DNA of 64,000 nucleotides from Novosphingobium sp. EMRT-2 (GTDB lineage Bacteria; Pseudomonadota; Alphaproteobacteria; Sphingomonadales; Sphingomonadaceae). This document shows positions 16,863 through 33,396 of this stretch, one piece after another (the stretch's first letter is position 1; every line of letters starts with the position of its first letter). The stretch lies in assembly GCF_005145025.1 (NCBI RefSeq), contig NZ_CP039695.1, forward strand, positions 3,395,501 through 3,459,500, read 5' to 3'. The position numbers and the translations under genes were made by a program. The notes beneath the pieces were generated by a model. That model had not been told where the DNA came from, did not search any database, and was given only the letters and a program-made list of their open reading frames with translations.

Positions 16863-18956
16863 ATGCTACGTCAGTACGAACTTGTCGAACGGGTCCTTGC
16901 TTATGATCCGGACGCGGATGAGGCGATCCTCAACCGCGCCTATGTCTATACCGTGCAGAAGCACGGCACCCAGAAGCGCGCGTCGGGCGATCCCTATTTC
17001 TCGCACCCGGTGGAAGTCGCCGGCCTGATGACCGAGCTGAAGCTCGATCAGGCGACGGTGGTGACGGCGCTGCTCCACGATACGGTGGAGGATACGCTGG
17101 CCACCGTGGACGAGATCGAGCGGCTGTTCGGCGGCGATGTGGCGCGGCTGGTCGATGGCGTGACCAAGCTCTCGAAAATCGAGACGATGAGCGACAACGA
17201 GCGCGCCGCCGAGAATCTGCGCAAGTTCCTGCTGGCGATGAGCGAGGACTTGCGCGTCCTGCTCGTCAAGCTGGCGGATCGCCTGCACAACATGCGCACG
17301 CTCCACTTCATCAAGAGCGAGGAAAAGCGTCGCCGCATCGCGCGCGAGACGATGGATATCTATGCCCCGCTGGCCGAGCGCGTGGGCATGTACGAATACA
17401 TGCGCGAGATGCAGTTGCTGGCCTTCGAGCAGCTCGAACCCGAAGCCTATGCCACGATCAGCGGACGCCTTGCCGCGATCCGCAGCGAGGAAAACGGCCA
17501 GGTCGGGGCGATCGCGCTGGAGATCAAGCAGGCGCTGGCCGAAGCGGGTCTCAGGGTGGAAGTCTCGGGCCGCGAGAAGCACCCCTATTCGATCTGGAAG
17601 AAGATGGCCGAGCGCCATGTCAGCTTCGAGCAGATCACCGACATCATGGCCTTCCGCGTGCTGACGGAGAACGAGGACGATTGCTACAAGGCGCTGGGCA
17701 TCCTGCACCGCACCTGGCAGATGATCCCCGGCCGCTTCAAGGACTACATCTCCACGCCGAAGATGAACGGCTACAAGAGCCTGCACACCTCGCTGATCTA
17801 CAACAACGCCATGCGCGTGGAAGTGCAGATCAAGACGCGGGAGATGCACGAGACCAACGAGTTCGGTCTGGCCGCGCACTGGTCGTACAAGCAGGGCGGA
17901 GTCACGCCCGACGGGCAGGTGGGCTGGCTGCGCGATCTGCTGGAAATCCTCGAAGCCAGCAACGATCCCGAGGAGCTGCTCGAAAACACCAAGATGGCGA
18001 TCTATCAGGATCGCATCTTCGCCTTCACGCCCAAGGGGGCGCTGTTCCAGCTGCCCAAGGGCGCGACGCCGATCGACTTCGCCTTTGCCGTTCACACCAA
18101 TCTGGGCGCGCAGGCAGTAGGGGCGAAGATCAACGGGCGGCATGTGCCGCTGCGCACGCCGCTCAACAACGGCGATGTGGTGGAGATCATCAAGAGCCGG
18201 ACCTCGGAGCCGCAGCTTTCGTGGCTGGCCTTCGCCGTCACGGGCAAGGCGCGGGCCTCGATCCGCCGTTTCGTGCGCCAGAAGGAACGCGCCGAAGTCG
18301 CCGCCATCGGGCGCAAGCTCTACGAGGAGATCGTCGAGCGCCTGCCCGGCACCGTGGGCAAGAAGGCGCTGGCCGATGCAATCAAGCGGCTGAAGATGGC
18401 GGGCGAGGAAGACCTGATGTTCGCCGTCGGTTCGGCCAAGGTCGATGACCGGCAGGTGATGGAAGCCTTGATGCCGGGCAGCGCGGCGAACCTGCCCGAT
18501 CCCGATCACTGGCCCAAGCAGAAGCGCGCGATCGCTGTGCGCGGGCTGACGCCGGGCATGGCGTTCCAGCTGGCCGCGTGCTGCCATCCGGTGCCTGGCG
18601 ACCGCATCGTCGGGTTGCGGCGGCCGGGCAAGGGCGTGGAAGTCCACGCGATCGACTGCCTCAACCTTGCCAACGGGATCGATGCCGACTGGATCGACCT
18701 TTCGTGGGATGCGCGGACCGACGGCGCGATCGGCCGCCTGCGTGCCGAACTTTACAATCGCCCCGGCACGCTGGCGGAGATGGCGGGCATCTTCGCCAAG
18801 AACCACGCCAACGTGGTCAATCTGGAAATGACCCAGCGCGAAAACCCGTTCCATACCTACGAGGTGGACCTGGAAGTGCGCGATCTGGCGCACCTGACGC
18901 GCATCATCAGCGCCCTGCGCGCCAGTGACGCGGTGGCGCAAGCCGAACGCATCTGA
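16863..18956 (+). CDS. rsh: Bifunctional (p)ppGpp synthetase/hydrolase (RelA/SpoT homolog)
   Basis: This 697-residue stringent-response enzyme makes and degrades (p)ppGpp. The HD hydrolase domain (about 20-180) has FSHPVEVAG and the catalytic LLHDTVEDT. The synthetase domain (about 230-345) has the RFKD motif typical of dual-function Rel/Spo proteins (not ExDD of RelA), GYKSLHTS and VQIKTREMHE. TGS (about 390-450), a zinc-finger-like region with ACCHPVPGD, and a C-terminal ACT domain follow. It starts 76 bases after the acetyltransferase. It appears to be the only long Rsh here, as usual in alphaproteobacteria. Confidence 0.95.
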   Translation: MLRQYELVERVLAYDPDADEAILNRAYVYTVQKHGTQKRASGDPYFSHPVEVAGLMTELKLDQATVVTALLHDTVEDTLATVDEIERLFGGDVARLVDGVTKLSKIETMSDNERAAENLRKFLLAMSEDLRVLLVKLADRLHNMRTLHFIKSEEKRRRIARETMDIYAPLAERVGMYEYMREMQLLAFEQLEPEAYATISGRLAAIRSEENGQVGAIALEIKQALAEAGLRVEVSGREKHPYSIWKKMAERHVSFEQITDIMAFRVLTENEDDCYKALGILHRTWQMIPGRFKDYISTPKMNGYKSLHTSLIYNNAMRVEVQIKTREMHETNEFGLAAHWSYKQGGVTPDGQVGWLRDLLEILEASNDPEELLENTKMAIYQDRIFAFTPKGALFQLPKGATPIDFAFAVHTNLGAQAVGAKINGRHVPLRTPLNNGDVVEIIKSRTSEPQLSWLAFAVTGKARASIRRFVRQKERAEVAAIGRKLYEEIVERLPGTVGKKALADAIKRLKMAGEEDLMFAVGSAKVDDRQVMEALMPGSAANLPDPDHWPKQKRAIAVRGLTPGMAFQLAACCHPVPGDRIVGLRRPGKGVEVHAIDCLNLANGIDADWIDLSWDARTDGAIGRLRAELYNRPGTLAEMAGIFAKNHANVVNLEMTQRENPFHTYEVDLEVRDLAHLTRIISALRASDAVAQAERI

Positions 18957-19103: not shown

Positions 19104-19129
19104 AAATATCCAACTTAAAGTGGATATTT
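19104..19129. repeat. Palindrome with 9-base perfect arms
   Basis: AAATATCCA at 19104-19112 pairs with TGGATATTT at 19121-19129 around an 8-base centre (ACTTAAAG) that is itself nearly symmetric. It may be a repressor or activator site, or a weak terminator for rsh. It lies about 107 bases before the ATG of the giant gene. Confidence 0.6.
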
Positions 19130-19165
19130 AATACGTTTTACAAACAGGTCAATAATTACCACGAA

Positions 19166-19235: not shown

Positions 19236-22200
19236 ATGAAATATCTAAAGTCAATCGCGGTTATACGCGTAATTGTCGGGCTGTATGTCTTCCTGCTTGG
19301 CGGGATGGCTTATGCCGCGGACTTGCAGATATCGCAGTATTCGGCCGATCCCGATCCAATAGGTGCAAGCGCGCAGGCGACTTTTACAGTCACCGTCGCG
19401 AACAACAGCGTTTCCGCGGTCAGCAACGCGGTGGTCACGATCGGCGTGCCGGGGCGCTTCAGCGTTAGCGGTGCGCCGGGCAGCATCCCGTCGTATTGCA
19501 CGTTGTCCGGCGCGCCGGGCAGCCAGACGCTGACCTGCACGCTGGCGACCCTGCCCGGCGGCGGCGTGGCCAACGCCCGGACCTTCAGCTTCACCGCGAC
19601 CGCGCAGACGCCGGGAGCCAGCAGTTCGACCGCGACGATCGCGGCGGCTGGCAACACCGATTCCAATCCGGGCAACGACAGCCTGACGATCACCCCCACG
19701 GTGCGGGCCGGTGCGGACATCGCGCTGGTGAAGGCTGGTTCGGCCTCCAGCGTGCCGGCGGGCGACATCCTGAGCTACACCCTGACTGCCACCAACAACG
19801 GTCCGAACACGACGGCGGCGATCAGGGTGGTCGACAACCTTCCCGCCGCCAGCGATTTCCAGTTCCAGTCCGCCACGGGTTCGGGATGGACCTGCAATCT
19901 TTCCGGCACGACGCTGACCTGCGACTACAGCGGCAGCGCGCCGGCGGTTGGCGGCAGCTTCCCGGTCATCACGATCAGCGGCAAGATCACCAAGAACACC
20001 GCCGGCACGATCAGCAACATCGCGGCGGTAAGCATCACCGATCCGCTGGTGCTCGATCCGGCGACGGGTAACAACATTTCGAACACCGTCGTGACCAATG
20101 TCGAGGCGGGCGCCGACCTGCAGGCGATCAAGTCGATGACCTCGACGATCACCGTGGGGCAGAGCGGCAGCATCGTGCTATCGATCCGCAACACCGGACC
20201 GCAGACAACGCCGGCGGGCACCAAGATCGCCGACACGATCGATGGTTCGCTGGCGATCGGAACGTTGCCGTCCGGGTGCGCGCGATCGGGCCAGACGGTG
20301 ACCTGCACGGCGGCGTCGATCGCGGCCACGGGGCAGGTGGATTTCGTCATTCCGGTAACCGGCGCGTCGGCGACGTCAGGAGTCCTGACCAACACCGCGC
20401 ATGTCACCCCGCCCAGCGGATTCACCGATCCGGATACGAGCAACAACGATGCGTCCGCGCCGTTCCAGGTGGTGCTGCCGAACGCGGACCTCGAACTCTA
20501 TTCCAAGTCCAAAAGCCCCAGCCCGGTCGCGCCGGGCGCGGACATCACCAGCACTATCATCGTGCGCAATCTGGGGCCGTCGGTCGCAAGCTGGACTCCG
20601 TCCACGCCGATCCGCGTGACCGATACGCTGAGCGCCGACGAGACCTACGTCAGCGTTTCGGGTAACTGGTCCTGTTCGGTCTCGGGCGTGGTGGTCACGT
20701 GCCAGACGACGGATTCCGGCACGCTTCAGGTTGGCGATCTGCTGTATCTGACGCTCGTGACGAAAGCCGGGTCGGGCGTCGATACCGACGTGGTCAACAC
20801 CGCCTGTACCGACCGCACGGCCGGTTCGGCCCACACGCCGTCGTCGCCCTCCAGCCCCACCGGCAACGATTGCCGGTCGGCGGGCGTGCGCTCCACCACC
20901 AAGGCGGCGGACATTTCCATCGCCAAGGACATGAGCCTGTCCCCCAGCGGCGGGTGGACGCACAACCTGACGGTCGCGAACACCGACAACAGCTATTACA
21001 TACGCCTGCGCGTATCGAACGCCGCCGGCGGCGACCTGGCGCGCACGGTGTACGTGACCGACGCCATTCCCGACTTCATCACCAGCGGCAGCTATGTAAC
21101 CGCCGTCAACCAGAACAGCATCAGTTCGGGTAGCATGAGCTACAACCAGTGGAACGGGCTGGTGAGCTGGTCGCTGTCCAACCTGGCGGCGGGCGCCACC
21201 GAAACACTGGTGATCCGCGTGGACCGGCCGTTCGAAAGCGGTTCCTACACCAACTTCGCCTCGGTGTTTTCGCCCGACACGACCGAAACCAACAACGCCA
21301 ACAACAGCGATTCCGCAAACTTCAGCGTGGGCGCGGTGGCCGACATGACGGTCAATTCGAAGTCGGTAACGCCCGATCCGGTGCGCGTGGGCGTGCCTGC
21401 GACCTACATCATCAGCGTGCGCAACGATGGCGCCAACCCGGCGGACAACGTGCAGGTGGTCGACGTGATCGATCCGGCGCGGTTCCAGATCACTGGCACG
21501 CCGACCACGACCAAGCCGGGCGCAAGCTGCTCGGTCGTGCCGTCCACGGGCACCGTGACCTGCGCCATGGGCCAGTTCGCGCGCACCGAAGTGCGGCAGA
21601 TCAGCATCGGCGTGCTGCCGAAGTATCCGTTCGGTTCCGAAACGGTGGCCACGCTGCCAGTCACGCAGGCGAACAAGGCCACCGTCACGACCTCGACGCT
21701 CGACGCCAACGGCGGCAGCGACCCCAACGCCGGCAACAACGCCTTCACGCTGAACCACACCGTGAACGGCCCGTCTTTCGATCTCGCCGTGACCAAGACC
21801 GAAAGCGATCCGGTGAACGACGATCCGGTGCGGTTCGACGAGACGCTGAACTACGACATCCGCGTTTCCAACTACGGCCCCTCGCGCGCGACCAACGTGA
21901 TCGTGACCGACATTCCCTCGCCGCCGGCCGGGCTGACGACCACGCTCCAGTCCGTGACGGTGAACCCGGTTGCGGCCAACGGCGGCCTGTCGCTCCAGGC
22001 GGCACCGAACGCGGGCTGTGTGCCGTCGGGGGCAACCTATGTTTGCCGCATCGACGCCTCGAACACCGATGCCAACTACCTCGATCCTTCGCGCCAGGTG
22101 GTGTTCCGGCTGGTCTTCGCCATCGGCGGCACGCCGCCTTCGGCGCCCGTTACCTATAGCAACGCGGCGGAAGTGACCTCGGCCGAACAGCCGGTGTGGA

Positions 22201-25200
22201 ATGGCGCTGGCGCGGATGCGCAGACGGTCAACAACCGCGCGGTCCAGACGACCACGATCCGGCCGTCCACCGATCTCCAGATCGTGAGCAAGACGCGCTC
22301 CGGAGCGCTGATGCGCAACGTCAACGAACCGGTCGAATTCACCATTCGGTTCCGCAACAACGGACCTTCCACCGCCACGCGGGTGCGCGTGACCGACGTG
22401 CTGCCGGCGGGCTTCGTCTATGCCGCATCCCCCGCCCCTTCGACCGCCATTCCCGGCGGCAGCGGCGCCAGCGTTTCGGGCCTGAACTGCTCGGGCACAA
22501 CCACGATCACCTGCGACATCGACGGCAGCTTCCCCGTGGGCGCCGCGCATGCGGTGGACCTGAAAGTCCGCGCCAAGGCGCAAGGCCCTTACAGCGGCGC
22601 GCTTTCGCCCATGGACGCGACCGACACCGCGACGATCACGCCCGGCCTTGACGGCAGCGGCGATCCGCTGAGCGAGGACGCCGACAACACCAACAACAGC
22701 CAGTCGGCCGTCGTCCAGATCAAGCCTTCGTCGATCGCGGGCACGGTCTATGCCGACAACAACGACAACAACGTGTTCAACGGTGGTGAAGGCATCGCCG
22801 GCGTTACCCTCTCGCTGACCGGCACCGACATCTATGGCAACGCGGTTGCGGCCACGGCCATCACCAATGCGTCGGGAGCGTTCGCGTTCGACGTGCTGCC
22901 GCCTTCGGACGCGGCGGGCTACACGATCGTCGAGACGCAGCCGGCAAACTTCTACGATCTCAACGAAACCGCGGGCAGCGCTGGCGGCACCGTCAACAAC
23001 GCGGTCCGTGGCAACACCCCGGCGGAGAACACCATCGGCGGCATCGTGCTGGCGGCTCAGACGGCGGCGACCGGCTATCTGTTCCAGGATCATGCCAATG
23101 CGGTGATCGTCGCAACCAACGACGACCCGCCCGCCGTCAACGGCGCAACCGGGCAGACGAACATCGTCAACGCCTTCGCCAACGATACCTTCAACAATGC
23201 CGCGATCGATCCGGCGAAGATTGTCGCCACGATCGTTACCCCGGCGACGAATGCTGGCGTCACCATGGATACCGCCACCGGCCTCGTCAGCGTGGCTCCG
23301 GGTACGCCGGCGGGCACCTACACCATCGACTATTGCATCTGCGACAAGGCCGATGCGGCGACCTGCGCCTCAGCGCGCGTCACCGTGGTCGTCACCGCGC
23401 CGCCGATCGTCGCCACCAACGACACGATCAGCGGGATCAACGGCGCGACCGGTGCGACCGACGTCCTGTCCGCCCTGACCGGGGATACGGTCAACGGCGC
23501 GGCCGCGACCACTGGCGCGGTGACCATTTCGGTCGCTGCCGGATCGACCGTGCCTTCGGTGCTGACGTTCGATCCCGCCACAGGCAAGGTTTCTGTCCAT
23601 GCCGATACGCCAGCCGGTACCTACAGCTTCAACTACCAGATCTGCGAAGCGCTCAACCCGGCCAACTGCGCCATCGCCACCGAGACCGTCTCGGTCGTGG
23701 CCGGCTCGATCGCGGCAGTCAACGACAGCGCTGCCGGCATCAACGGTGCGGCGGGCGCGGCCAATGTGCTCAACGTGCTGACCGGCGATACGCGCAATGG
23801 CGCGGCGGCGACCACGGGGACCGTCACCATCGCGGTGGCGCCAGGGTCTGCCGTGCCGTCCGAACTGACCTTCGACACCGCGACGGGTGCGGTGTCGGTC
23901 AAGCCGGGCACGCCGGCGGGCACCTATCTGTTCAACTATCGCATCTGCGAAACGATCAACCCCACCAACTGCGCCACGGCCGAAGCGCGCGTGACGGTGG
24001 TGGCCGGTGTGATCGCGGCCGCGAACGACACGGTTGGCGGCGTCAACGGAACGCTGGGCGGCAGCAACGTGCTCAACGTTCTGGCGGGCGACACGCTCAA
24101 CGGCGCGCCGGCCACGACCTCGACGGTGGCGATCACGCTTGCGCCGGGCGCCACGGTCCCGTCTGGCCTCGCGTTCGATCCGGCGACGGGCAACGTGTCG
24201 GTCGCGCCGAACACCCCGGCGGGCACCTATCACTTCGACTACCGGATTTGCGAGAAGCTGAATCCGACCAACTGCTCCATCGCGACCGCGACGGTTACTG
24301 TCGTCGCCGCGCCGATCACGGCGGACGACGATGCTTCCTCGCCCGTCACGGGGGCGACTGGCGCGGCCGACGTGGTCGACGCGCTGGAAGGCGACGCGCT
24401 CAACAACGCGCAGGCCAAGCTGGCCGACGTGACGATGACGGTCGTCACCCCCGCGACGGCGGTGGGCGGCAATCCGGTACCCGTGCTCGATACGGCGACC
24501 GGCAAGGCCAGCGTGCCGGCGGGAACGCCGTCCGGCACCTACACCATCGATTACCGGATCTGCGAAAAGCTGAACCCGGCCAACTGCGCCACCGCCAGGA
24601 TCACCGTGCCGGTAACGGCGGCGGCGATCACCGCGGGCAATGACAGCGCGACCGGCATTAACGGCGCGGCGGGCGCGGCGGGCGTGCTCAACGTGCTGTC
24701 GGACGACCGGCTGAACGGGGTGGCGGTGACCACGGGGACGGTATCCATCGCCGTCGCCGCCGGATCGTCGGTGCCACCAGTGCTCACCTTCGACCCCGCC
24801 ACCGGCGCGGTCTCGGTCAAGCCAGGGACGCCGGCCGGCCCCTATCACTTCGACTACACGATCTGCGAAAAGCTGAACCCCACGAATTGCGCAACGGCCA
24901 CGGCCAGCGTGACCGTGGTGGCCGCGCCGATCGTCGCCACCCCTGACAGCGCGACCGGGATCAACGGTGCCTCGGGCGGCACGGGTGTGCTCAACGTGCT
25001 GGGTGGCGATACGCTGAATGGCGTGGCGGCCACCACGGGAACGGTGACGATCGCGGTGGCTTCGGGTTCCTCGGTGCCTGCGGCGCTGACCTTCGACCCC
25101 GCCACCGGCGCGGTCTCGGTCAAGCCGGGCACGCCGGCGGGCACTTACAGCTTTGACTACACGATCTGCGAAAAGCTGAACCCCACGAATTGCGCGACGG

Positions 25201-27881
25201 CCATGGCCAGCGTGACCGTGGTGGCTGCGCCCATCATCGCGACCAACGACACCGTTCCGACGGTCAATGGCGGCCAGGGTGGCGCGGGCGTGATCGACGT
25301 GCTGGGCAACGACACGCTGAACGGTGCGCCGGCCGACAAGGGCACGGTCACGATCTCGGTCGTCACGCCGGCCACGCCGATCAACGGTGGCGCCGTGCCG
25401 GTGCTCGATCCGGCCACGGGCCTGGTCAACGTGCCGGCGGATACCCCGGCGGGTACTTACACCATCGACTATCGCATCTGCGAGAAGCTGAATCCGACGA
25501 ACTGTTCGACGGCGAAGGTGACCGTGCCGGTCAGCGCCGGCCCGATCACGGCGAAGGATGACAGCGCCACCGGCATCAACGGGGCATCGGGCGCGACGAA
25601 CGTGGTCAACGTGCTGGGCGGCGATACCCGCAACGGCGCGGCCGCGACCCCAGCGACCGTCACCATCGGCCTTGCGCCGGGGGCGACGCTGCCGGCGGGG
25701 CTGGCGTTCGATACGGCCACGGGCGATGTCTCGGTCAAGCCGGGCACGCCGGCGGGCACCTACAGCTTCGACTACCAGATCTGCGAGAAGCTCAATCCCA
25801 CCAACTGCGCGACCGCCAAGGTCAGCGTCACGGTCATTCCCGCGCCCATCGTGGCGGTGGACGACACGGTTGCCGGCATCAACGGCGGTTCGGGCGCGGT
25901 CAACGTGCTGAACGCGCTGGGCGGCGATACGCTGAATGGCCAGCCGGCAACGGTGGCCACGGTCACGCTGGCACTCGTCAACGCGCTGCCTGCCGGCTTC
26001 ACGTTCGATCCGGCGACCGGCAACCTTAGTGTCGCGCCGGGCACGCGCGATGGTTCTTACGCCATCCCGTACCGGATCTGCGAGAAGCTGAACCCCACCA
26101 ACTGCGCCAGTGCGACGATGACGGTTACCGTGATCCCGCCGCGCAGCACGGTTTCGGGCATCGTCTATCTCGACGGCAACCTCAGCCGCACGCACGAAAG
26201 CAGCGAGGCGCTGCTGGAAGGCTGGGCCGTGGAAGTGGTGCGCGGCGGCGCGGTGGTTGGCACCACGCACACCGACGCCAAGGGCTTCTACAGCATTCCC
26301 GACCTGCTGAGCGGCGATGGCTATTCCATTCGCTTCCGCCATGCGGCGAGCGGGGTGGTCTATGGCCGGATCGACAGCGCGGTGCTGCCGGTCAACGCCA
26401 CGCTGGCCGACCAGAACATGCCGATCGATCCTTCGGGCGTGGTCTATGACTCGGTCACCCGCAGCCCGGTTCCCGGCGCGGTGGTGACGCTGGTGGACGA
26501 TGGCGGCGTGCCGCTGGCGGATGCCTGCTTCATCGATCCGGGCCAGGCACGCCAGGTCACGAGCGCCGATGGCCTCTACCGCTTCGACATCGTGGCGGGC
26601 GCGGCGGCCCAGTGCCCGGCGGCACGCACCGGCTATCACCTGAAGATCACGCCGCCTTCCGGCTATTCCGGGCCGGAATCGACGGTGATCGCGGCGCAGC
26701 AGGGCCTGTTCAATCCGGCTGGCCGCGGCACCCCGGCCCCCGTGGTGGCCAATGCCGGCGCGCCGCAGGCTTCGGACCCGACGACCTACTACCTCGGCTT
26801 CCTGCTGGGGCAGGGCGACGGCAACGTGGTGAACAACCACATTCCGCTCGATCCCTTCCTGTCGCGCACGCCGCTGATCGTCACCAAGACCAGCGATAAG
26901 CGCACCGCGAACGTGGGTGATCTGGTGCCTTACACCATCACCGTGCGCAACACCGAGGCGCTGACCCGCGCCGGGGTGGCGGTGGTCGACATCCTTCCGC
27001 CGGGCTTCCGCTATGTCGCGGGATCGGCGCGGGTGGAAGGCCTGCCGCTGGAGCCGGTGGCGAGCGACCGCGAACTCCGCTGGAACGGCCAGGTCGTGCC
27101 CGGCAACACCACGCTGACCTATCGCATCATCGCGGTGATCGGCGCGGGCGTGACCGAGGGGGATCGCGTGAACACCGCCGTCGCCCGAAGTGGAGCCGGA
27201 GCGGGCGCGGGTGGCTCGGACATCTCGAACCGGGCGCAGGCCGTGGTCTCGATCGTGCCGAGCACGCTGTTCGACTGCGCCGAAGTGATCGGCAAGGTCT
27301 ATGACGATCGCAACGGCAACGGTTACCAGGACGCAGGCGAACCGGGCATCCCGGCCGCGCGCCTCGCCACGGTGAACGGCCAGCTGGTGACGGCGGACGA
27401 CCATGGCCGCTACCACATCACCTGTGCCGCCGTGCCCAACGCGCTGATCGGCTCCAACTACGTGCTCAAGCTCGACACGCGGACGGTGCCGGAAGGCTAT
27501 GCGCCGACTACCGACAACCCGCAGTCGATCCGCCTGACGCGTGGCAAGATCAGCGAGTTGAACTTCGGCGTGCAGAAGGCGCGGGTGGTGGCGGTGGCCA
27601 TCGACGCCAGGGCCTTCGCGGCCGGGAGCGCCGACCTGCTGCCCGCCTTCGCCGCGCGGCTGGAAACCCTGAAGACGATCAAGGCTGCAAGGCTGGCGAT
27701 CCGGGCGACCTACACGGCCGCCGCCGGTGAACCCGCCGCAGTGATCGAGGCCCGCCTCGCCAACCTGCATGACCGGATCGGCGATGTGTTCCGCAACGGC
27801 TGGGACGGTCCGCCACCGGTGATCGAGATCGACATGATCGCCGCCGATGGCGCCCGCACCAGTGCTTCGGGACAGGAGTAA
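19236..27881 (+). CDS. Giant secreted DUF11/SdrD-B repeat surface protein with Cys-pair tandem repeats
   Basis: This 2881-residue protein has a Sec signal peptide (cleavage after AYA, about 27). Residues 29-1165 hold about eight DUF11-type beta-sandwich repeats, each opening with ADLxxxK or similar. An SdrD-B/Cna-B-like domain lies at 1166-1290 (GTVYADNNDNNVFNGGEG). Residues 1292-2302 are ten tandem repeats of about 101 residues, each ending ICEKLNPTNCATA or a variant with two cysteines. More Cna-B-like domains (2303-2545), a DUF11 domain (2547-2680), another SdrD-B domain (GKVYDDRNGNGYQDAGEPG) and a degenerate OmpA-like tail (2785-2881) follow. It is probably a long cell-surface or outer-membrane-associated adhesin. 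The barrel gene begins 5 bases after its stop, so the pair likely acts together. Its role is not established. Confidence 0.85.
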   Translation: MKYLKSIAVIRVIVGLYVFLLGGMAYAADLQISQYSADPDPIGASAQATFTVTVANNSVSAVSNAVVTIGVPGRFSVSGAPGSIPSYCTLSGAPGSQTLTCTLATLPGGGVANARTFSFTATAQTPGASSSTATIAAAGNTDSNPGNDSLTITPTVRAGADIALVKAGSASSVPAGDILSYTLTATNNGPNTTAAIRVVDNLPAASDFQFQSATGSGWTCNLSGTTLTCDYSGSAPAVGGSFPVITISGKITKNTAGTISNIAAVSITDPLVLDPATGNNISNTVVTNVEAGADLQAIKSMTSTITVGQSGSIVLSIRNTGPQTTPAGTKIADTIDGSLAIGTLPSGCARSGQTVTCTAASIAATGQVDFVIPVTGASATSGVLTNTAHVTPPSGFTDPDTSNNDASAPFQVVLPNADLELYSKSKSPSPVAPGADITSTIIVRNLGPSVASWTPSTPIRVTDTLSADETYVSVSGNWSCSVSGVVVTCQTTDSGTLQVGDLLYLTLVTKAGSGVDTDVVNTACTDRTAGSAHTPSSPSSPTGNDCRSAGVRSTTKAADISIAKDMSLSPSGGWTHNLTVANTDNSYYIRLRVSNAAGGDLARTVYVTDAIPDFITSGSYVTAVNQNSISSGSMSYNQWNGLVSWSLSNLAAGATETLVIRVDRPFESGSYTNFASVFSPDTTETNNANNSDSANFSVGAVADMTVNSKSVTPDPVRVGVPATYIISVRNDGANPADNVQVVDVIDPARFQITGTPTTTKPGASCSVVPSTGTVTCAMGQFARTEVRQISIGVLPKYPFGSETVATLPVTQANKATVTTSTLDANGGSDPNAGNNAFTLNHTVNGPSFDLAVTKTESDPVNDDPVRFDETLNYDIRVSNYGPSRATNVIVTDIPSPPAGLTTTLQSVTVNPVAANGGLSLQAAPNAGCVPSGATYVCRIDASNTDANYLDPSRQVVFRLVFAIGGTPPSAPVTYSNAAEVTSAEQPVWNGAGADAQTVNNRAVQTTTIRPSTDLQIVSKTRSGALMRNVNEPVEFTIRFRNNGPSTATRVRVTDVLPAGFVYAASPAPSTAIPGGSGASVSGLNCSGTTTITCDIDGSFPVGAAHAVDLKVRAKAQGPYSGALSPMDATDTATITPGLDGSGDPLSEDADNTNNSQSAVVQIKPSSIAGTVYADNNDNNVFNGGEGIAGVTLSLTGTDIYGNAVAATAITNASGAFAFDVLPPSDAAGYTIVETQPANFYDLNETAGSAGGTVNNAVRGNTPAENTIGGIVLAAQTAATGYLFQDHANAVIVATNDDPPAVNGATGQTNIVNAFANDTFNNAAIDPAKIVATIVTPATNAGVTMDTATGLVSVAPGTPAGTYTIDYCICDKADAATCASARVTVVVTAPPIVATNDTISGINGATGATDVLSALTGDTVNGAAATTGAVTISVAAGSTVPSVLTFDPATGKVSVHADTPAGTYSFNYQICEALNPANCAIATETVSVVAGSIAAVNDSAAGINGAAGAANVLNVLTGDTRNGAAATTGTVTIAVAPGSAVPSELTFDTATGAVSVKPGTPAGTYLFNYRICETINPTNCATAEARVTVVAGVIAAANDTVGGVNGTLGGSNVLNVLAGDTLNGAPATTSTVAITLAPGATVPSGLAFDPATGNVSVAPNTPAGTYHFDYRICEKLNPTNCSIATATVTVVAAPITADDDASSPVTGATGAADVVDALEGDALNNAQAKLADVTMTVVTPATAVGGNPVPVLDTATGKASVPAGTPSGTYTIDYRICEKLNPANCATARITVPVTAAAITAGNDSATGINGAAGAAGVLNVLSDDRLNGVAVTTGTVSIAVAAGSSVPPVLTFDPATGAVSVKPGTPAGPYHFDYTICEKLNPTNCATATASVTVVAAPIVATPDSATGINGASGGTGVLNVLGGDTLNGVAATTGTVTIAVASGSSVPAALTFDPATGAVSVKPGTPAGTYSFDYTICEKLNPTNCATAMASVTVVAAPIIATNDTVPTVNGGQGGAGVIDVLGNDTLNGAPADKGTVTISVVTPATPINGGAVPVLDPATGLVNVPADTPAGTYTIDYRICEKLNPTNCSTAKVTVPVSAGPITAKDDSATGINGASGATNVVNVLGGDTRNGAAATPATVTIGLAPGATLPAGLAFDTATGDVSVKPGTPAGTYSFDYQICEKLNPTNCATAKVSVTVIPAPIVAVDDTVAGINGGSGAVNVLNALGGDTLNGQPATVATVTLALVNALPAGFTFDPATGNLSVAPGTRDGSYAIPYRICEKLNPTNCASATMTVTVIPPRSTVSGIVYLDGNLSRTHESSEALLEGWAVEVVRGGAVVGTTHTDAKGFYSIPDLLSGDGYSIRFRHAASGVVYGRIDSAVLPVNATLADQNMPIDPSGVVYDSVTRSPVPGAVVTLVDDGGVPLADACFIDPGQARQVTSADGLYRFDIVAGAAAQCPAARTGYHLKITPPSGYSGPESTVIAAQQGLFNPAGRGTPAPVVANAGAPQASDPTTYYLGFLLGQGDGNVVNNHIPLDPFLSRTPLIVTKTSDKRTANVGDLVPYTITVRNTEALTRAGVAVVDILPPGFRYVAGSARVEGLPLEPVASDRELRWNGQVVPGNTTLTYRIIAVIGAGVTEGDRVNTAVARSGAGAGAGGSDISNRAQAVVSIVPSTLFDCAEVIGKVYDDRNGNGYQDAGEPGIPAARLATVNGQLVTADDHGRYHITCAAVPNALIGSNYVLKLDTRTVPEGYAPTTDNPQSIRLTRGKISELNFGVQKARVVAVAIDARAFAAGSADLLPAFAARLETLKTIKAARLAIRATYTAAAGEPAAVIEARLANLHDRIGDVFRNGWDGPPPVIEIDMIAADGARTSASGQE
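23109..26141 (+). repeat. Ten tandem ~303-bp repeats inside the giant surface gene
   Basis: The ten units start about 300-312 bases apart (for example 23109, 23409, 24630, 24933). Each encodes a NDxxxGINGxxG opening, a TFDPATGxVSVxPGTPAGTY block and an ICEKLNPTNC ending. Units 5 and 8 carry a VTPAT...VPVLD variant with a few extra residues. Units 6 and 7 are nearly identical at the DNA level in their second halves. Such arrays expand and contract by recombination. Confidence 0.9.
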
Positions 27882-27886
27882 GACCA

Positions 27887-30800
27887 ATGAACCGCAAGAC
27901 CATCCTGGCCCCGCAGTCCGCGTTCAAGGCGCGCCACGCGGCCCTGCTCGCCAGCGTTTCGGCGCTGGCCGGGCTGGGGATCGCCAGTCCCGCCTTCGCC
28001 GCCGCGCATGCCAGCCCGATTGCGTCGCAGGCTGATTTCGCCCGCCTTTCCCGGTTGGCGATTGACGCCAGCCTGACCGACCAGCGGGTTCTGCCGGGGG
28101 TGTCGGCGCGCCTGGCAGAACTCTCGGCGGGCGTGCTCCCGATCGCGCCCATGCCGGTCCTTTCGGCAGGGCTGGTCGGCTCGGAAAGCACCGTGCGGCG
28201 CGGCGATGCGGCGCTGTTCCTAGGCTATAGCAACTATCCGGCCTTCATCGCCCGCGCCGAGCTGCGTGTTTTCGCGCCGGATGCGCCGCTCTCGGGGCCG
28301 CCGCACGCGGTGGTGGAAGCCGATCGCAACGGCCTGATCCGCTGGACGCCAAGCACTTATGCGGGCGATGCCATGCGCTTCGTCTATCGCGTCTATGACC
28401 GTGACGGAAGGTACGACGAGACCGCGCCGCAGCCGCTGACGGTGTTGTCGGCGGTGCACATGCTCCCCGCCGAGCCGGTGGCCCGTGCCGATTTCGGCCA
28501 GATTGACAGCGCCGCGATCCGCCAGCTTCCGCTCGATGGTGCGCAGGCGGTGGCGGTGGAAGGCCAGACGTCCGCGCCCGATCAACTCGTGCGCGTCGCC
28601 GGCCAGATCGCGCCGGCCGACGCCGCCGGGCGCTTCGCAGCCGTTCAACTGCACCCGGCCGGCTGTGGCGCGGTCGCGGTCAGCGTGACAGGTCCGTGCG
28701 GCGAAAGCACGATCCAGCACGTCGTGCCCGATCCGGCGCAGAGCTTGCCCGCAACCGCGATGGGGGCCGGCGATGGCCTGAGCATCGCCATGGCCGATCC
28801 ACAGACGGATGCGGTCGCCACTGCGTCGATCGCGGCCGACAACCCTTACGCTATCCGCGTGCGGACCGATGCCGCGCGGGTCGATCCCGTGCTGGCGGCC
28901 GGGCTGGTCGAAAGCGAGCGGGCGGTGGTGCGCGGGAGGGACGCGACGTTCATCCGCTATACCAACTATCCCGCGATGGTGGCTCGTGGCGAGGTGCGGA
29001 TTTTCCGCGCCGATGCCTCGCCCGATGGCACGCCGCTGGCGGTCGTGCCGGCCGACCGCGACGGCGTTGCGCGCTGGACGCCGGGCGCGGATGCCGAGGG
29101 CGATCTTTTCTATGTCTATCGCGTCTATGACCGCGACGGCCAGTTCGACGAGACCGCGCCGCAGGAACTGACCGTGGTGGATACCCCGTTCGAGGGCAGT
29201 CCGCCGCCGCGCCCGCTGTTCGGATCGCGCGACGAGGCGGCGGTGCGCAACATCCCGTTCGGACGCACCGCGACGGTGACGGTCACCGGCCACGCGGATG
29301 CAGAGGAAGTGGTGCGCGTAGGCGGGCAGATGATCCCGCTCCAGTCCGACGGGCGCTTCGTCAGCCAGCAGATCGTCGCGCGCGATGCGCGGCAGGTCTG
29401 GGTGACGGTGGGGCAAGGCGAACAGACCCGATTCACCGCGATGCGCGACATCGGTGTGAAGCAAAGCGACTGGTTCATCGTCGGCCAGGGCGATCTGACC
29501 TTCGTTTCCTCCAAGGGCAACGGCCCGGCGGTGGAAGTCAGCGGCGATCCGATCGCGGCGGGCGAGCACGTGACCGGCCGCGCGGCGTTCTACGCCAAGG
29601 GCACGTTCGCCAGCGGATGGAAGGTGACGAGTTCGCTCGACACCGGCGAAACGCTGCTCAAGGACCTGTTCAGCAACCTCGACCGCAAGGACCCGCGCCA
29701 GTTGCTGCGCCGGCTCAATTCCAACGAATACTACACGACCTATGGCGACGATTCCGCGCTGGTCGAGGATGCGCCGACGCAAGGGCGGTTCTACCTGAAA
29801 GTGCAGAAGGACCGCTCCAGCCTGCTGATCGGCAACTACGTCGCCGATATCCGCCAGGCGGAACTGGCGCAGCTCAATCGCGGCACGTTCGGCGCGATCG
29901 CGAGCCACCAGAGCGTGAAGACCACCAGCTTTGGCGAAAGCAGGCTGCAGGTCACAGCGTTCGCGTCCGATCCCGGCACGATCCCCGGCCGCGACGAGTT
30001 CCGGGGGACGGGCGGTTCGCTCTATTACCTCCAGCGCCGCGACGTGACCGTTGGGTCGGAACGGCTGGCGGTGGAAGTGCGCGACCGGATCACCGGCGTG
30101 GTGCTTTCGCGCCGCAGCCTGCAGGCGCAGGAAGACTACAGCATCGATTACTTCCAGGGGCGGCTCACGCTGCTCCAGCCGCTTTCGTCCTATGCCGCCG
30201 GCAGTGCGACGGTGCGCGATGGCACGGCTTCGGCGGGCGTGCCGGTGCTGGTCGCCAACTACGAATATACCCCGGCGGTGGGCGACGTGGGCGGCTATAC
30301 CGTGGGTGGCCGCGCCGCCGCGTGGATCGGCGATACGGTGCGCCTGGGCGTGACCGGCCAGCGTGAGACCACCGGCACCGCGGATCAGACGCTGCTGGGC
30401 ACGGACGCCACCGTGCGGCTGCACCCCGGCACCTATGTGAAGGCGGAAGTCGCGCAGACCGAAGGACCGGGTTTCGGTCAGTCGAACTCGGTCGATGGCG
30501 GCCTGACCTTCACCAATTATGGCGCGACCGGCAGCGCCAACGTGAAGGCCATGGCCTATCGCGCGGAAGTGGCGGTTAACTTTGCGGAACTGGCGGGCGG
30601 CAAGCCTGCGGATGCCGGCGCTGTGGCCGGAGCCGGCGTCGATAAGGGCAAGCTCTCCGCCTGGTTCGAGCATCTCGACGCAGGCTTCGGCGCCAACGCG
30701 CAACTGACGGCGAGCGCCACCGAGCGCTGGGGCGCGCAACTGGCGCTGCCGATCGGCACCCGCACCGCGCTGGCGGCCAAGGTCCAGCATCTGCGCACCG

Positions 30801-32185
30801 ACGCCGCCGGCAGCCGCACGGTCGGTTCGGCGGACGTGACGCAGCGCCTGGGTGGCGGTTTCACGCTGGCCGGCGGGCTGCGCTATAGCCAGGAAGCGGT
30901 CGGGCTGGTCTATAACAGCACAGAAAGCGGCAAGCGTACCGATGCCGCGCTGCAACTGGGCTACAAGCCGGAGCAGGGCAAGTGGTCGGTCTATGGTTTC
31001 GGGCAGGCGACGCTGGACCGCGACGCCGGGCGGCGCGGCAACAACCGCGTCGGGCTGGGCGGCAAGGTGGAGCTTTCTGACCGGCAGTCGCTGGCGGCCG
31101 AAGTCTCCGAAGGCAACGGCGGGCTGGGCGCGAGCGCCACGCTCAACCATCGCTATGGCCGGGGCTCGGAAACCTATCTGGGCTATGCGCTGATCACCGA
31201 CCGCGTCGATCAGGGGCTTGAGCCTTCCACTAGCTTTGCGCGCACCAATCGCGGCACGCTGACGCTGGGCGCGCGGCACCGGTTTTCCTCCGCGCTGTCG
31301 ATCCACGGCGAAAACAAGCTGGGCCACGGCGGCACCGCGCCAAGCCTGACGCGCGGCTTCGGGCTGGACTGGACGCCCACGGAGCGCTGGTCGTTCTCCG
31401 GCTCGTTCGAGAACGGCCATATCGACGACGTGGCGACCGGCCGCTTCCGTCGCACCGCCGCCACGTTCGGCGTGGCCTATACCAGCAAGGGCGTGCAGTT
31501 CGGCACAAATGTCGAAGGTCGGTTCGAGCGCGGTGCGGGGCGCAGCCAGAACGTATGGCTGTTCCGCAATCACGCCTCGGTCATGATCAACCCGGACTGG
31601 CGCGCGCTGGCGCGGCTGAACTTCGCCATCGCGGACAACACCACGGCCGATGTCAACGCCGCCGACTATGTCGAAGGCACGATCGGCTTCGCCTATCGCC
31701 CGGTGGCGAACGACCGGCTCAACCTGCTGACGCGCTATACCTACCTCAAGGACATGGGGCCGGTGGGGCAGGTGACGCAGGGCGGGCAGATCGGCAGCCC
31801 CAAGCAGAAGAGCCAGATCTTCGCGATTGACGCGAACTACGATCTGACGCGCACGCTGACGCTGGGCGGCAAGTATGCCTTCCGCAAGGGCAGCGTCTCG
31901 CTCACGCGCGACAGCGATACCTATGTCACCAGCAACACCTGGCTGGGCGTGGCGCGGATCGACTGGCGGCTGGTGCGGCAATGGGACGTGCTGGTCGAAG
32001 GACACTACCTGTCCGCCGACCGCGCGGGCGATCACCGCTGGGGCGGTCTGGCGGCGGTCTATCGCCATCTGGGCAACAACGCGAAGGTCGGCGTGGGCTA
32101 CAGCTTCTCCGACTTTTCCAGCGACCTTTCGAACCAGAGCTACACGAGCAAGGGCGTGTTCGTGAACCTGCTGGGCAAGTTCTGA
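27887..32185 (+). CDS. Large outer-membrane beta-barrel protein paired with the repeat surface protein
   Basis: This 1432-residue protein has a signal peptide (cleavage after SPAFA, about 38). Two related segments open LVGSEST (about 96) and LVESERAV (about 340), each ending VYRVYDRDG...DETAPQ. A central region has NSNEYYTTYGDDSALVED and FYLKVQKDRSSLLIGNY (about 615-650). From about 800 the sequence alternates short beta-strands and glycine turns and ends VFVNLLGKF; a terminal Phe is the outer-membrane barrel assembly signal. The ATG is 5 bases after the upstream stop with AGGAG overlapping that stop, so the two are translationally coupled. It may anchor, export or display the giant protein; no known secretion family was recognised. 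Confidence 0.82.
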   Translation: MNRKTILAPQSAFKARHAALLASVSALAGLGIASPAFAAAHASPIASQADFARLSRLAIDASLTDQRVLPGVSARLAELSAGVLPIAPMPVLSAGLVGSESTVRRGDAALFLGYSNYPAFIARAELRVFAPDAPLSGPPHAVVEADRNGLIRWTPSTYAGDAMRFVYRVYDRDGRYDETAPQPLTVLSAVHMLPAEPVARADFGQIDSAAIRQLPLDGAQAVAVEGQTSAPDQLVRVAGQIAPADAAGRFAAVQLHPAGCGAVAVSVTGPCGESTIQHVVPDPAQSLPATAMGAGDGLSIAMADPQTDAVATASIAADNPYAIRVRTDAARVDPVLAAGLVESERAVVRGRDATFIRYTNYPAMVARGEVRIFRADASPDGTPLAVVPADRDGVARWTPGADAEGDLFYVYRVYDRDGQFDETAPQELTVVDTPFEGSPPPRPLFGSRDEAAVRNIPFGRTATVTVTGHADAEEVVRVGGQMIPLQSDGRFVSQQIVARDARQVWVTVGQGEQTRFTAMRDIGVKQSDWFIVGQGDLTFVSSKGNGPAVEVSGDPIAAGEHVTGRAAFYAKGTFASGWKVTSSLDTGETLLKDLFSNLDRKDPRQLLRRLNSNEYYTTYGDDSALVEDAPTQGRFYLKVQKDRSSLLIGNYVADIRQAELAQLNRGTFGAIASHQSVKTTSFGESRLQVTAFASDPGTIPGRDEFRGTGGSLYYLQRRDVTVGSERLAVEVRDRITGVVLSRRSLQAQEDYSIDYFQGRLTLLQPLSSYAAGSATVRDGTASAGVPVLVANYEYTPAVGDVGGYTVGGRAAAWIGDTVRLGVTGQRETTGTADQTLLGTDATVRLHPGTYVKAEVAQTEGPGFGQSNSVDGGLTFTNYGATGSANVKAMAYRAEVAVNFAELAGGKPADAGAVAGAGVDKGKLSAWFEHLDAGFGANAQLTASATERWGAQLALPIGTRTALAAKVQHLRTDAAGSRTVGSADVTQRLGGGFTLAGGLRYSQEAVGLVYNSTESGKRTDAALQLGYKPEQGKWSVYGFGQATLDRDAGRRGNNRVGLGGKVELSDRQSLAAEVSEGNGGLGASATLNHRYGRGSETYLGYALITDRVDQGLEPSTSFARTNRGTLTLGARHRFSSALSIHGENKLGHGGTAPSLTRGFGLDWTPTERWSFSGSFENGHIDDVATGRFRRTAATFGVAYTSKGVQFGTNVEGRFERGAGRSQNVWLFRNHASVMINPDWRALARLNFAIADNTTADVNAADYVEGTIGFAYRPVANDRLNLLTRYTYLKDMGPVGQVTQGGQIGSPKQKSQIFAIDANYDLTRTLTLGGKYAFRKGSVSLTRDSDTYVTSNTWLGVARIDWRLVRQWDVLVEGHYLSADRAGDHRWGGLAAVYRHLGNNAKVGVGYSFSDFSSDLSNQSYTSKGVFVNLLGKF

Positions 32186-32202
32186 TGCGGGGGAGAGCGG
32201 GG

Positions 32203-32775
32203 ATGAATACCATGCGTTCATGGATCGCGGCCGGCTTCGTGCTGGCGGGCTGCCAGATGGCGCCCATGCTCGCGGCGCCCGCGCAAGCCGCGCCGGTCGA
32301 GCAGTTGCGCTGCATCGACGACCGGCTGAACGAGCGCCAGCGCGCGGATATCGCCGGGCTGTTCGCGCAGCAGCCGGATGATCCCGCCGGTCATGTAAAG
32401 ACCGCCCAGGGATCGGTCGCCGCATCGCGCGACATGACCCTGGCGCTGGCCAGTTGCGCCGCGCGGTTCGGCTGGAGCAGGGCGGCGCAGGACGCGGCGT
32501 CGCGCTATCTGGTGGACATTGCGCGCCTGGCGCGGATCGCGGTCGATCGGGGCGTGCCCTGGAGCGCGACGATGGAGCGGCATGCGCCGCTTGCCGTAAA
32601 GCGCCTGCCCGATGGGGCCGAGGTGGAAGGGCATCTGCGCGCGCAGATCGTCGCGGGCGCGGTCGCCAATGGCAACGGCGCGATCAGCGCGGCGCAGGGA
32701 GACGATGTGATCGCCTATCTGCGCGGCTGGCGCGAAGTGGAGCGTGCGCGCGGGGCCTTCGCCGGCGTGAAATGA
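32203..32775 (+). CDS. Small exported protein of the surface operon, unknown function
   Basis: This 190-residue protein starts 17 bases after the barrel gene with GGGGGAG before the ATG; an earlier in-frame ATG at 32185 overlaps the barrel stop. The N-terminus looks like a lipoprotein signal (VLAGC, Cys 17), but AQA at about 33-35 could instead be a normal Sec cleavage site. Residues 38-190 are helical and alanine-rich with no recognised family. It is the last gene of the three-gene surface operon and ends directly against the convergent tag gene. Confidence 0.7.
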   Translation: MNTMRSWIAAGFVLAGCQMAPMLAAPAQAAPVEQLRCIDDRLNERQRADIAGLFAQQPDDPAGHVKTAQGSVAASRDMTLALASCAARFGWSRAAQDAASRYLVDIARLARIAVDRGVPWSATMERHAPLAVKRLPDGAEVEGHLRAQIVAGAVANGNGAISAAQGDDVIAYLRGWREVERARGAFAGVK

Positions 32776-33396
32776 TCAGCGTGCCGTGGCGGGAGGGGCA
32801 GGGCGCACGAAACGCGCCCGCGCCGCTTCCGCCTCGGCATGGATCGCGCATTCCCTGGGGTGGTCGTTGATCAGGCCCATCGCCTGCATGAAGGCATGGA
32901 CGGTCGTCGGGCCGACGAACTTCCAGCCCCGCTTCTTGAGATCCTTCGACATCGCGATCGACGCGGGCGAGGTGGAAGCGAGGTGAGGGACCGCTTCACC
33001 CCGTGGTTCGAAGCTCCAGACATAGGCGGCGAGCGAGCCCTTTTCGGCGATCAGGTCCAGCGCGCGGCGGGCGTTGTTGATCACCGCCTCGATCTTGCCG
33101 CGGTGGCGGACGATGCCGGCATCCTGCAGCAACCGCTCGACATCGCCTTCCTCGAACCCTGCGACGCGCGCGAAATCGAAGCCGTGGAACGCCGCGCGGA
33201 AATTGTCGCGCTTCATCAGGATGGTGCGCCAGCTCAGCCCTGACTGGAAGCCTTCGAGCGAGAGCTTTTCGAACAGCCGCCGATCGTCCTCCACCGGGAA
33301 GCCCCATTCGCGGTCATGATAGGCGATGTACTCCGCCGAGGCGGCGCACCAGCCGCACCGCAACCGCCCATCCTCACCCGTCGCTAGACTGACCAT
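32776..33396 (-). CDS. tag: DNA-3-methyladenine glycosylase I
   Basis: This base-excision repair enzyme removes 3-methyladenine from alkylated DNA. It is 206 residues. The zinc ligands are in RCGWC near the N-terminus, the YHDREWG block, and HPREC near the C-terminus (His and Cys spaced HxxxC). GFQSGLSWRTIL and the FVGPTTVHAFMQAMGLINDH segment are family hallmarks. It converges with the surface operon with no space between stop codons and no terminator visible. Confidence 0.94.
   Translation of the reverse strand: MVSLATGEDGRLRCGWCAASAEYIAYHDREWGFPVEDDRRLFEKLSLEGFQSGLSWRTILMKRDNFRAAFHGFDFARVAGFEEGDVERLLQDAGIVRHRGKIEAVINNARRALDLIAEKGSLAAYVWSFEPRGEAVPHLASTSPASIAMSKDLKKRGWKFVGPTTVHAFMQAMGLINDHPRECAIHAEAEAARARFVRPAPPATAR

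Follow-up and report, generated by a model that had tools for sequence, protein, structure and literature searches.

A giant CLIPPER-repeat protein and a large outer-membrane barrel protein form a linked or fused pair across many Proteobacteria

The stretch of DNA analysed here (the window) comprises 64,000 nucleotides (nt) of Novosphingobium sp. EMRT-2 (NZ_CP039695.1), and all coordinates not assigned to another locus are those of the window. Three open reading frames (ORFs) of 2881, 1432 and 190 amino acids (aa) follow one another on its + strand with intergenic gaps of 5 and 17 bases, and encode a giant repeat protein (gene 1), an outer-membrane protein with a predicted beta-barrel (gene 2) and a small exported protein (gene 3). 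An earlier reading of the sequence alone (the original prediction) had described these as a single surface machine in which the barrel may anchor, export or display the giant; the three ORFs, their sizes, both gaps and the terminal Phe of the barrel protein were all confirmed. The AGGAG motif that it placed over the stop codon of the giant is present, but lies just 5' of the TAA, 8 nt from the barrel ATG. The close spacing suggests that the three genes share one transcript. No + strand terminator-like site was listed by a terminator scan of 19236-32775, and a promoter-like site lies at 19128-19156; the scan gave 2 such sites, and 2.8 are expected from shuffled sequence. The N-termini of all three proteins resemble export signals, as judged by eye and not by a signal-peptide tool. 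The features of the three genes are as follows.

19236..27881, + strand: gene 1, exported giant of 2881 aa with tandem DUF11 (CLIPPER) immunoglobulin-like (Ig-like) repeats and SdrD_B modules (ORF list, Pfam)
27306..27581, + strand: the dock, giant residues 2691-2782, SdrD_B/CnaB-like, kept in barrel-adjoining giants and fused forms
27582..27878, + strand: degenerate OmpA-like tail of the giant, residues 2783-2881, predicted as beta-alpha-beta-alpha-beta (alignment to the first of two OmpA-like repeats in relatives)
27874..27878, + strand: AGGAG, likely ribosome-binding site of the barrel gene (direct reading)
27887..32185, + strand: gene 2, outer-membrane protein of an unnamed family, 1432 aa (ORF list; 647 homologues; no family above cut-off)
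28883..29446, + strand: second N-terminal Ig-like domain pair of gene 2, residues ~333-520 (sub-cut-off Glucodextran_B and Big_9 matches, alignment A1, model strands)
29468..32182, + strand: predicted giant beta-barrel region of gene 2, residues ~528-1432 (AlphaFold2 model, strand list)
29945..30187, + strand: tentative plug-like insert of gene 2, residues ~687-767 (mostly short strands between early and later long ones)
32203..32775, + strand: gene 3, exported, 190 aa, apparently a lineage-specific accessory (ORF; 9 homologues; adjoins the barrel in 4 of 4 full-barrel genomes of the genus sample)

The giant and the barrel are a conserved pair, linked or fused across many Proteobacteria. Within the family to which the window belongs, 53 of 149 genomes match the barrel, 11 of the matches being long (the window's own included), and all 10 other long-match loci have at least one same-strand ORF directly upstream that resembles the giant (9 of 10, by phmmer) or carries DUF11 (L040). 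A broader set of loci, labelled L, was taken as the 80 best of 591 confirmed, a choice skewed toward close relatives of the query; 78 of them have a scorable barrel. The dock is found at most 2.5 kb upstream of the barrel in 75 of these 78. The three exceptions are L066, where the contig begins at the barrel, L126, where the dock is present and overlaps the estimated barrel start, and L065:9836-21538 (Pseudoxanthomonas yeongjuensis), where the order is reversed and a dock-bearing giant lies directly downstream of the barrel. A dock-bearing long ORF adjoins the barrel in all 77 named loci with room for one, and is upstream in 76, overlapping the barrel ORF by 4 bases in 40 of them; of the 76 ORFs, 39 are closed and measure 822-3048 aa, and the other 37 run off the end of the locus. 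Pfam scans of four giants from the named loci confirmed DUF11 in each, and the in-frame translation of a Roseovarius giant carries the dock. Pseudoxanthomonas wuyuanensis has two barrel loci (L056 and L076) on one contig, ~16 kb apart.

In a phylum-wide sample of 398 genomes, searched with profile A1 for the barrel and A4 for the dock (whose own members match by construction), the barrel was found in 57 and the dock in 55, with both in 53, the barrel only in 4 and the dock only in 2 (Fisher p 1.5e-58). The dock lies at most 4 kb upstream of the barrel in 50 of the 53, in the same open frame in 31, in another frame in 21 and in both arrangements in 2. In the remaining three, the two are on different contigs (G297, G446) or the dock is ~10 kb downstream (G424). 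The underlying linkage table leaves out additional partial hits to a gene already entered, as well as three of the four G346 rows; the genome counts are unaffected.

The barrel of six fused proteins is that of the split class (hhalign E 7.2e-51 over 772 columns), and the one fused sphingomonad protein scanned, of ~1700 aa, has a single DUF11 stretch and SdrD_B. Occurrence as one protein in some lineages and as two genes in others is a usual sign of cooperating parts. The original prediction named homologues standing far from any such giant as evidence that would count against it; the relatives instead either adjoin a giant ORF that bears the dock or form one protein with the dock, and the coupling that it proposed is strongly supported by both linkage and fusion. 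That reading had overlooked the dock and the OmpA-type tail, as well as the existence of fused forms and the breadth of the distribution. Apparent giant-barrel fusions in L059, L061, L085, L086, L092 and L126 were rejected as GC-rich read-through of another frame. At some loci of the sphingomonad fused class (for example L048:6350-14869) a DUF11-like gene of ~350 aa lies upstream, and sometimes a DUF11 gene of 700-850 aa downstream; small and large DUF11 genes also cluster around the fused dock-barrel protein of an Acinetobacter haemolyticus plasmid (L149:4123-16488).

Pfam assigns to the giant DUF11 (E 1.5e-78, nine stretches) and SdrD_B (E 5.8e-20, three stretches); the same scan listed no recognisable N-terminal adhesive domain, and a PDB sequence search gave no match. 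DUF11 has been renamed CLIPPER following the structure of one domain from a putative fibrillar adhesin of Acinetobacter with an OmpA-like anchor, and was the most broadly distributed stalk domain in a 2025 survey, spanning Gram-positive, Gram-negative and archaeal surface proteins (PMC12617251, available text). The combination by which CLIPPER fibrillar adhesins are recognised, a tandem DUF11 stalk with a signal peptide, is present in the giant, with the signal assigned by eye. Its relatives, with their long DUF11 stalk, cadherin-like repeats and C-terminal OmpA-type domain, are like Acinetobacter silvestris B9T28_05395 as it appears in the available text of PMC12617251; in the window's giant, by contrast, the OmpA-like tail is degenerate and no adhesive tip is recognised. 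How Gram-negative CLIPPER proteins cross the outer membrane is not described in that text, and the main text of the paper never uses the terms outer membrane, barrel or secretion. Apparent mentions of DUF11 in the available text of PMC12282271 are mostly DUF1194. An isopeptide pattern scan of the giant gave three candidate repeats only and was not used. At L031:5297-12105 (725, 792 and 740 aa) and L033:7741-13713 (448, 792 and 740 aa) the giant is represented by three consecutive ORFs, with signal-like starts by eye.

The dock is an SdrD_B-type segment of 92 columns near the C-terminus, picked out only after the giants had been inspected. It is kept among giants of very unequal length, and 20 of its columns are invariant in 16 aligned sequences. 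A structure search with a model of the giant's tail showed the fold of the dock to resemble SdrD B and CnaB-like domains of surface proteins. On that resemblance the dock could be a surface-anchoring module, as expected if the giant left the cell through a different system (type II, type I or BAM-assisted) and the barrel merely held it at the surface. Against such a route, the fused chains run in the order DUF11-bearing part, dock, barrel, which is the order of autotransporters. Moreover, no exporter gene recurs beside the pair in six annotated loci; at the Eleftheria locus a type II-like cluster lies ~3 kb from the pair. The Pfam scan (E up to 1) found no RTX family in the giant, and ABC exporter genes were not searched for. 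We regard export by another route as quite improbable.

The ORF ending near the barrel start carries an OmpA-type tail in 74 of the 78 named loci (L089 only at E 4e-4), and Pfam finds OmpA in all four of the relatives' giants scanned. A pattern search found two OmpA-type units behind the dock in 49 of the 80 loci, the first a degenerate OmpA-like repeat and the second an OmpA domain. These two repeats are related to each other (99.5%, versus 0.6% for the reversed control), and 48 of the 49 second repeats contain the aspartate motif, which in OmpA domains has a role in peptidoglycan binding. The proteins of the window have no OmpA match in Pfam. The tail of the window's giant aligns with the first, degenerate repeat at a probability of 64% (reversed control 0.3%) and with the second, true OmpA domain at 13% (control 0.4%); OmpA was not listed among the best 50 rows in two structure searches with the tail model, which the dock fills, so that they are uninformative on the tail. 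A profile of the double OmpA tail gave no match in five other dock-bearing giants (S. meliloti, Phyllobacterium, Pelagibacterium, Eleftheria and Roseovarius). In Eleftheria (L148:11044-15261) an OmpA domain is found at the N-terminal end of the barrel protein itself, two other barrel proteins carry LysM domains (P0227 from Microbulbifer, at the N-terminal end, and P0220), the fused dock-barrel protein of the A. haemolyticus plasmid is followed by a separate OmpA gene, and the L126 ORF stops ~22 residues past the dock. Because OmpA and LysM placement varies and some tails end after the dock, the dock is the constant element, while the OmpA part relocates or disappears.

This recurrence of OmpA or LysM domains bears on the main rival to a threading of the giant outward through the barrel, the reading favoured below. 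The barrel would be an outer-membrane anchor only, and the giant a periplasmic tether that joins the outer membrane to peptidoglycan through its dock and OmpA domain, with no threading. A link between dock and barrel would by itself account for fusion and linkage, short dock-bearing ORFs occur, of 740 aa in L031 and L033 and of 822-1289 aa among the five smallest closed ORFs, and DUF11 is scarce in the fused class. On the other hand, many giants reach 1900-4300 aa, apparently more than a tether would require, stalks of DUF11 typify surface adhesins (PMC12617251, available text), and the predicted barrel, of at least 34 long strands, seems oversized for an anchor. On balance a pure tether appears unlikely, though less so than the other alternatives considered here.

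The AlphaFold2 model of the barrel protein (pLDDT 77.5, pTM 0.71) suggests a barrel of ~34-38 long strands. Strands within residues 687-762, in the plug-like insert, are only 3-8 residues long in the model, and an extra Ig-like pair at residues ~91-290 precedes the pair at ~333-520. Nothing was found above cut-off in Pfam or NCBIfam for the window protein and three relatives, or for three more, and neither the single sequence nor a 75-sequence profile matched the PDB by sequence; a match to a known unrelated transporter family, which the original prediction held would speak against it, was not found above cut-off. A protein search that scored 8000 candidates returned 647 homologues; those of the best 120 that bear a source name are mostly called hypothetical protein, with one Glucodextranase domain B. 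The profile search, for which A1 was the query as it was for the choice of the 80 named loci (so that its own members match by construction), scored 7996 candidates, gave 285 matches and extended to Lysobacter, Pseudoxanthomonas, Luteimonas and Microbulbifer, often annotated as TonB-dependent receptor among the best 120. Precomputed Pfam labels among the listed relatives include Ig-like PF09136 in some and the generic barrels PF13505, PF13609 and PF10677 in a few. In a plasmid survey the barrel matched 25 of 72,556 records, including Sinorhizobium, Phyllobacterium, Roseovarius, Vibrio, Eleftheria and Acinetobacter; the five records at the end of the match list cover no more than 32% of the query, and six of the 25 were read in gene context. 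By these sequence comparisons the barrel group appears to be very large and to have no Pfam or NCBIfam model of its own in the scans made.

The annotation of several records as TonB-dependent receptor, together with an exbBD-tonB cluster downstream in Phyllobacterium, would fit an ordinary uptake channel or receptor with the giant as an incidental neighbour. The barrel has no match to the TonB receptor domains PF00593 and PF07715 and is absent from the 90 PF00593 matches of its own genome, its profile comparison with TonB receptors reaches at most 3.2% for whole alignments, and it is linked and fused with the dock. This explanation is disfavoured, and we consider it very improbable.

Among known systems, chaperone-usher barrels gave a weak profile signal. 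Barrel alignments A2, A1 and A3 scored 47%, 25.5% and 13.5% against an usher profile, compared with 0.2-2.1% for reversed controls and 0.4-3.2% for TonB receptors; by parts, the plug region gave 1.0%, the N-terminal half 0.6% and the C-terminal half 14.4% (TonB 5.7%). The usher and TonB profiles each drew on 20 loci, every locus being represented by its longest open stretch, whose frame was not verified in all cases. The plug-like insert falls within the region aligned with FimD. The FimD usher barrel has 24 strands, fewer than are predicted here; neither the window proteins nor their own genome match the usher family PF00577, and no periplasmic chaperone family was among the Pfam matches of the three proteins, no chaperone profile having been searched. 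The top Foldseek row for the barrel model is SlpA of the S-layer deinoxanthin-binding complex (E 6.6e-8), but with a TM-score of only 0.20-0.23 and a root-mean-square deviation of 33. The type 9 translocon SprA reaches a TM-score of 0.10-0.17 and has no Pfam match in the window proteins, nor does the DUF560 barrel of type 11 secretion (Slam).

Type V secretion uses a dedicated barrel for a surface stalk, either as a separate partner or as the C-terminal part of the same chain, and both split and fused versions exist. The present pair is like two-partner secretion and autotransporters in these respects, and the part order of its fused forms resembles that of type Va; it differs in its far larger predicted barrel and in carrying, at the C-terminus of the stalk, the dock and often an OmpA domain. 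No POTRA, TPS, PF03797 or inverse-autotransporter (intimin-type) domain was found in the three proteins (Pfam, E up to 1), in agreement with the original prediction, which had seen no type V, type I or two-partner motif. No published description of the barrel-giant pair was found in a literature search that covered neither preprints nor most subscription papers.

The inclusion of gene 3 in the core machine was not upheld. It has 9 homologues in the protein search and no Pfam or NCBIfam match. Among 99 genomes of the genus, 28 have a barrel match of some kind and four a full-length one (in two pieces in G228); gene 3 lies beside the barrel in those four only, with a weak match in one further genome. 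It looks like a lineage-specific accessory. An alternative in-frame ATG at 32185 would overlap the barrel stop as TGATG. Assignment of gene 3 as a lipoprotein (LAGC) was dropped, since in its homologue P0250 the signal looks ordinary by eye and ends close to the corresponding mature start. On the Roseovarius plasmid (L150:15431-16126) the barrel is followed by a 231-aa exported protein with a GRYQFIPSTL stretch that appears lysozyme-like by eye; it has no Pfam or NCBIfam family match. The three-gene locus is flanked by the following.

16863-18956: upstream neighbour, putative RelA/SpoT-like gene
32776-33396: downstream neighbour, convergent, putative DNA-3-methyladenine glycosylase by eye
Downstream of the three-gene locus: tRNA-Arg gene

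We consider it moderately probable that genes 1 and 2 constitute a two-protein outer-membrane display system, in which the giant is docked by its C-terminus and its stalk is threaded outward through the barrel. The giant would be a fibrillar stalk of Ig-like CLIPPER (DUF11) domains, taken to the periplasm via Sec by its signal peptide. Its C-terminal SdrD_B-type dock would bind the barrel at its periplasmic mouth; the stalk, N-terminal to the dock, would then pass outward through the barrel, its base held by the dock, and may serve in adhesion. In most of the relatives fetched, the complex would also be bound to peptidoglycan by the OmpA domain that follows the dock; the window's giant appears to keep only the degenerate repeat of this part. 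The anchoring or export of the giant by the barrel, as first suggested, would fit this model. Linkage, fusion of dock and barrel and conservation of the dock are observed and the barrel is predicted, whereas binding, direction, passage through the barrel, attachment to peptidoglycan and a part in adhesion are inferred. More tentatively, the pair may represent an unnumbered secretion and display pathway of Proteobacteria, a possibility toward which we remain cautious, in which a plug-bearing giant barrel surfaces one CLIPPER adhesin, the C-terminal dock acts as the stopper and peptidoglycan-binding domains are carried by either partner.

The finding questions the frequent annotation of the barrel group as TonB-dependent receptor. 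A barrel that travels with the giants, often fused to their docking module, makes the crossing route directly testable. If true, the new pathway would explain the passage of OmpA-anchored CLIPPER adhesins across the outer membrane of Gram-negative bacteria.
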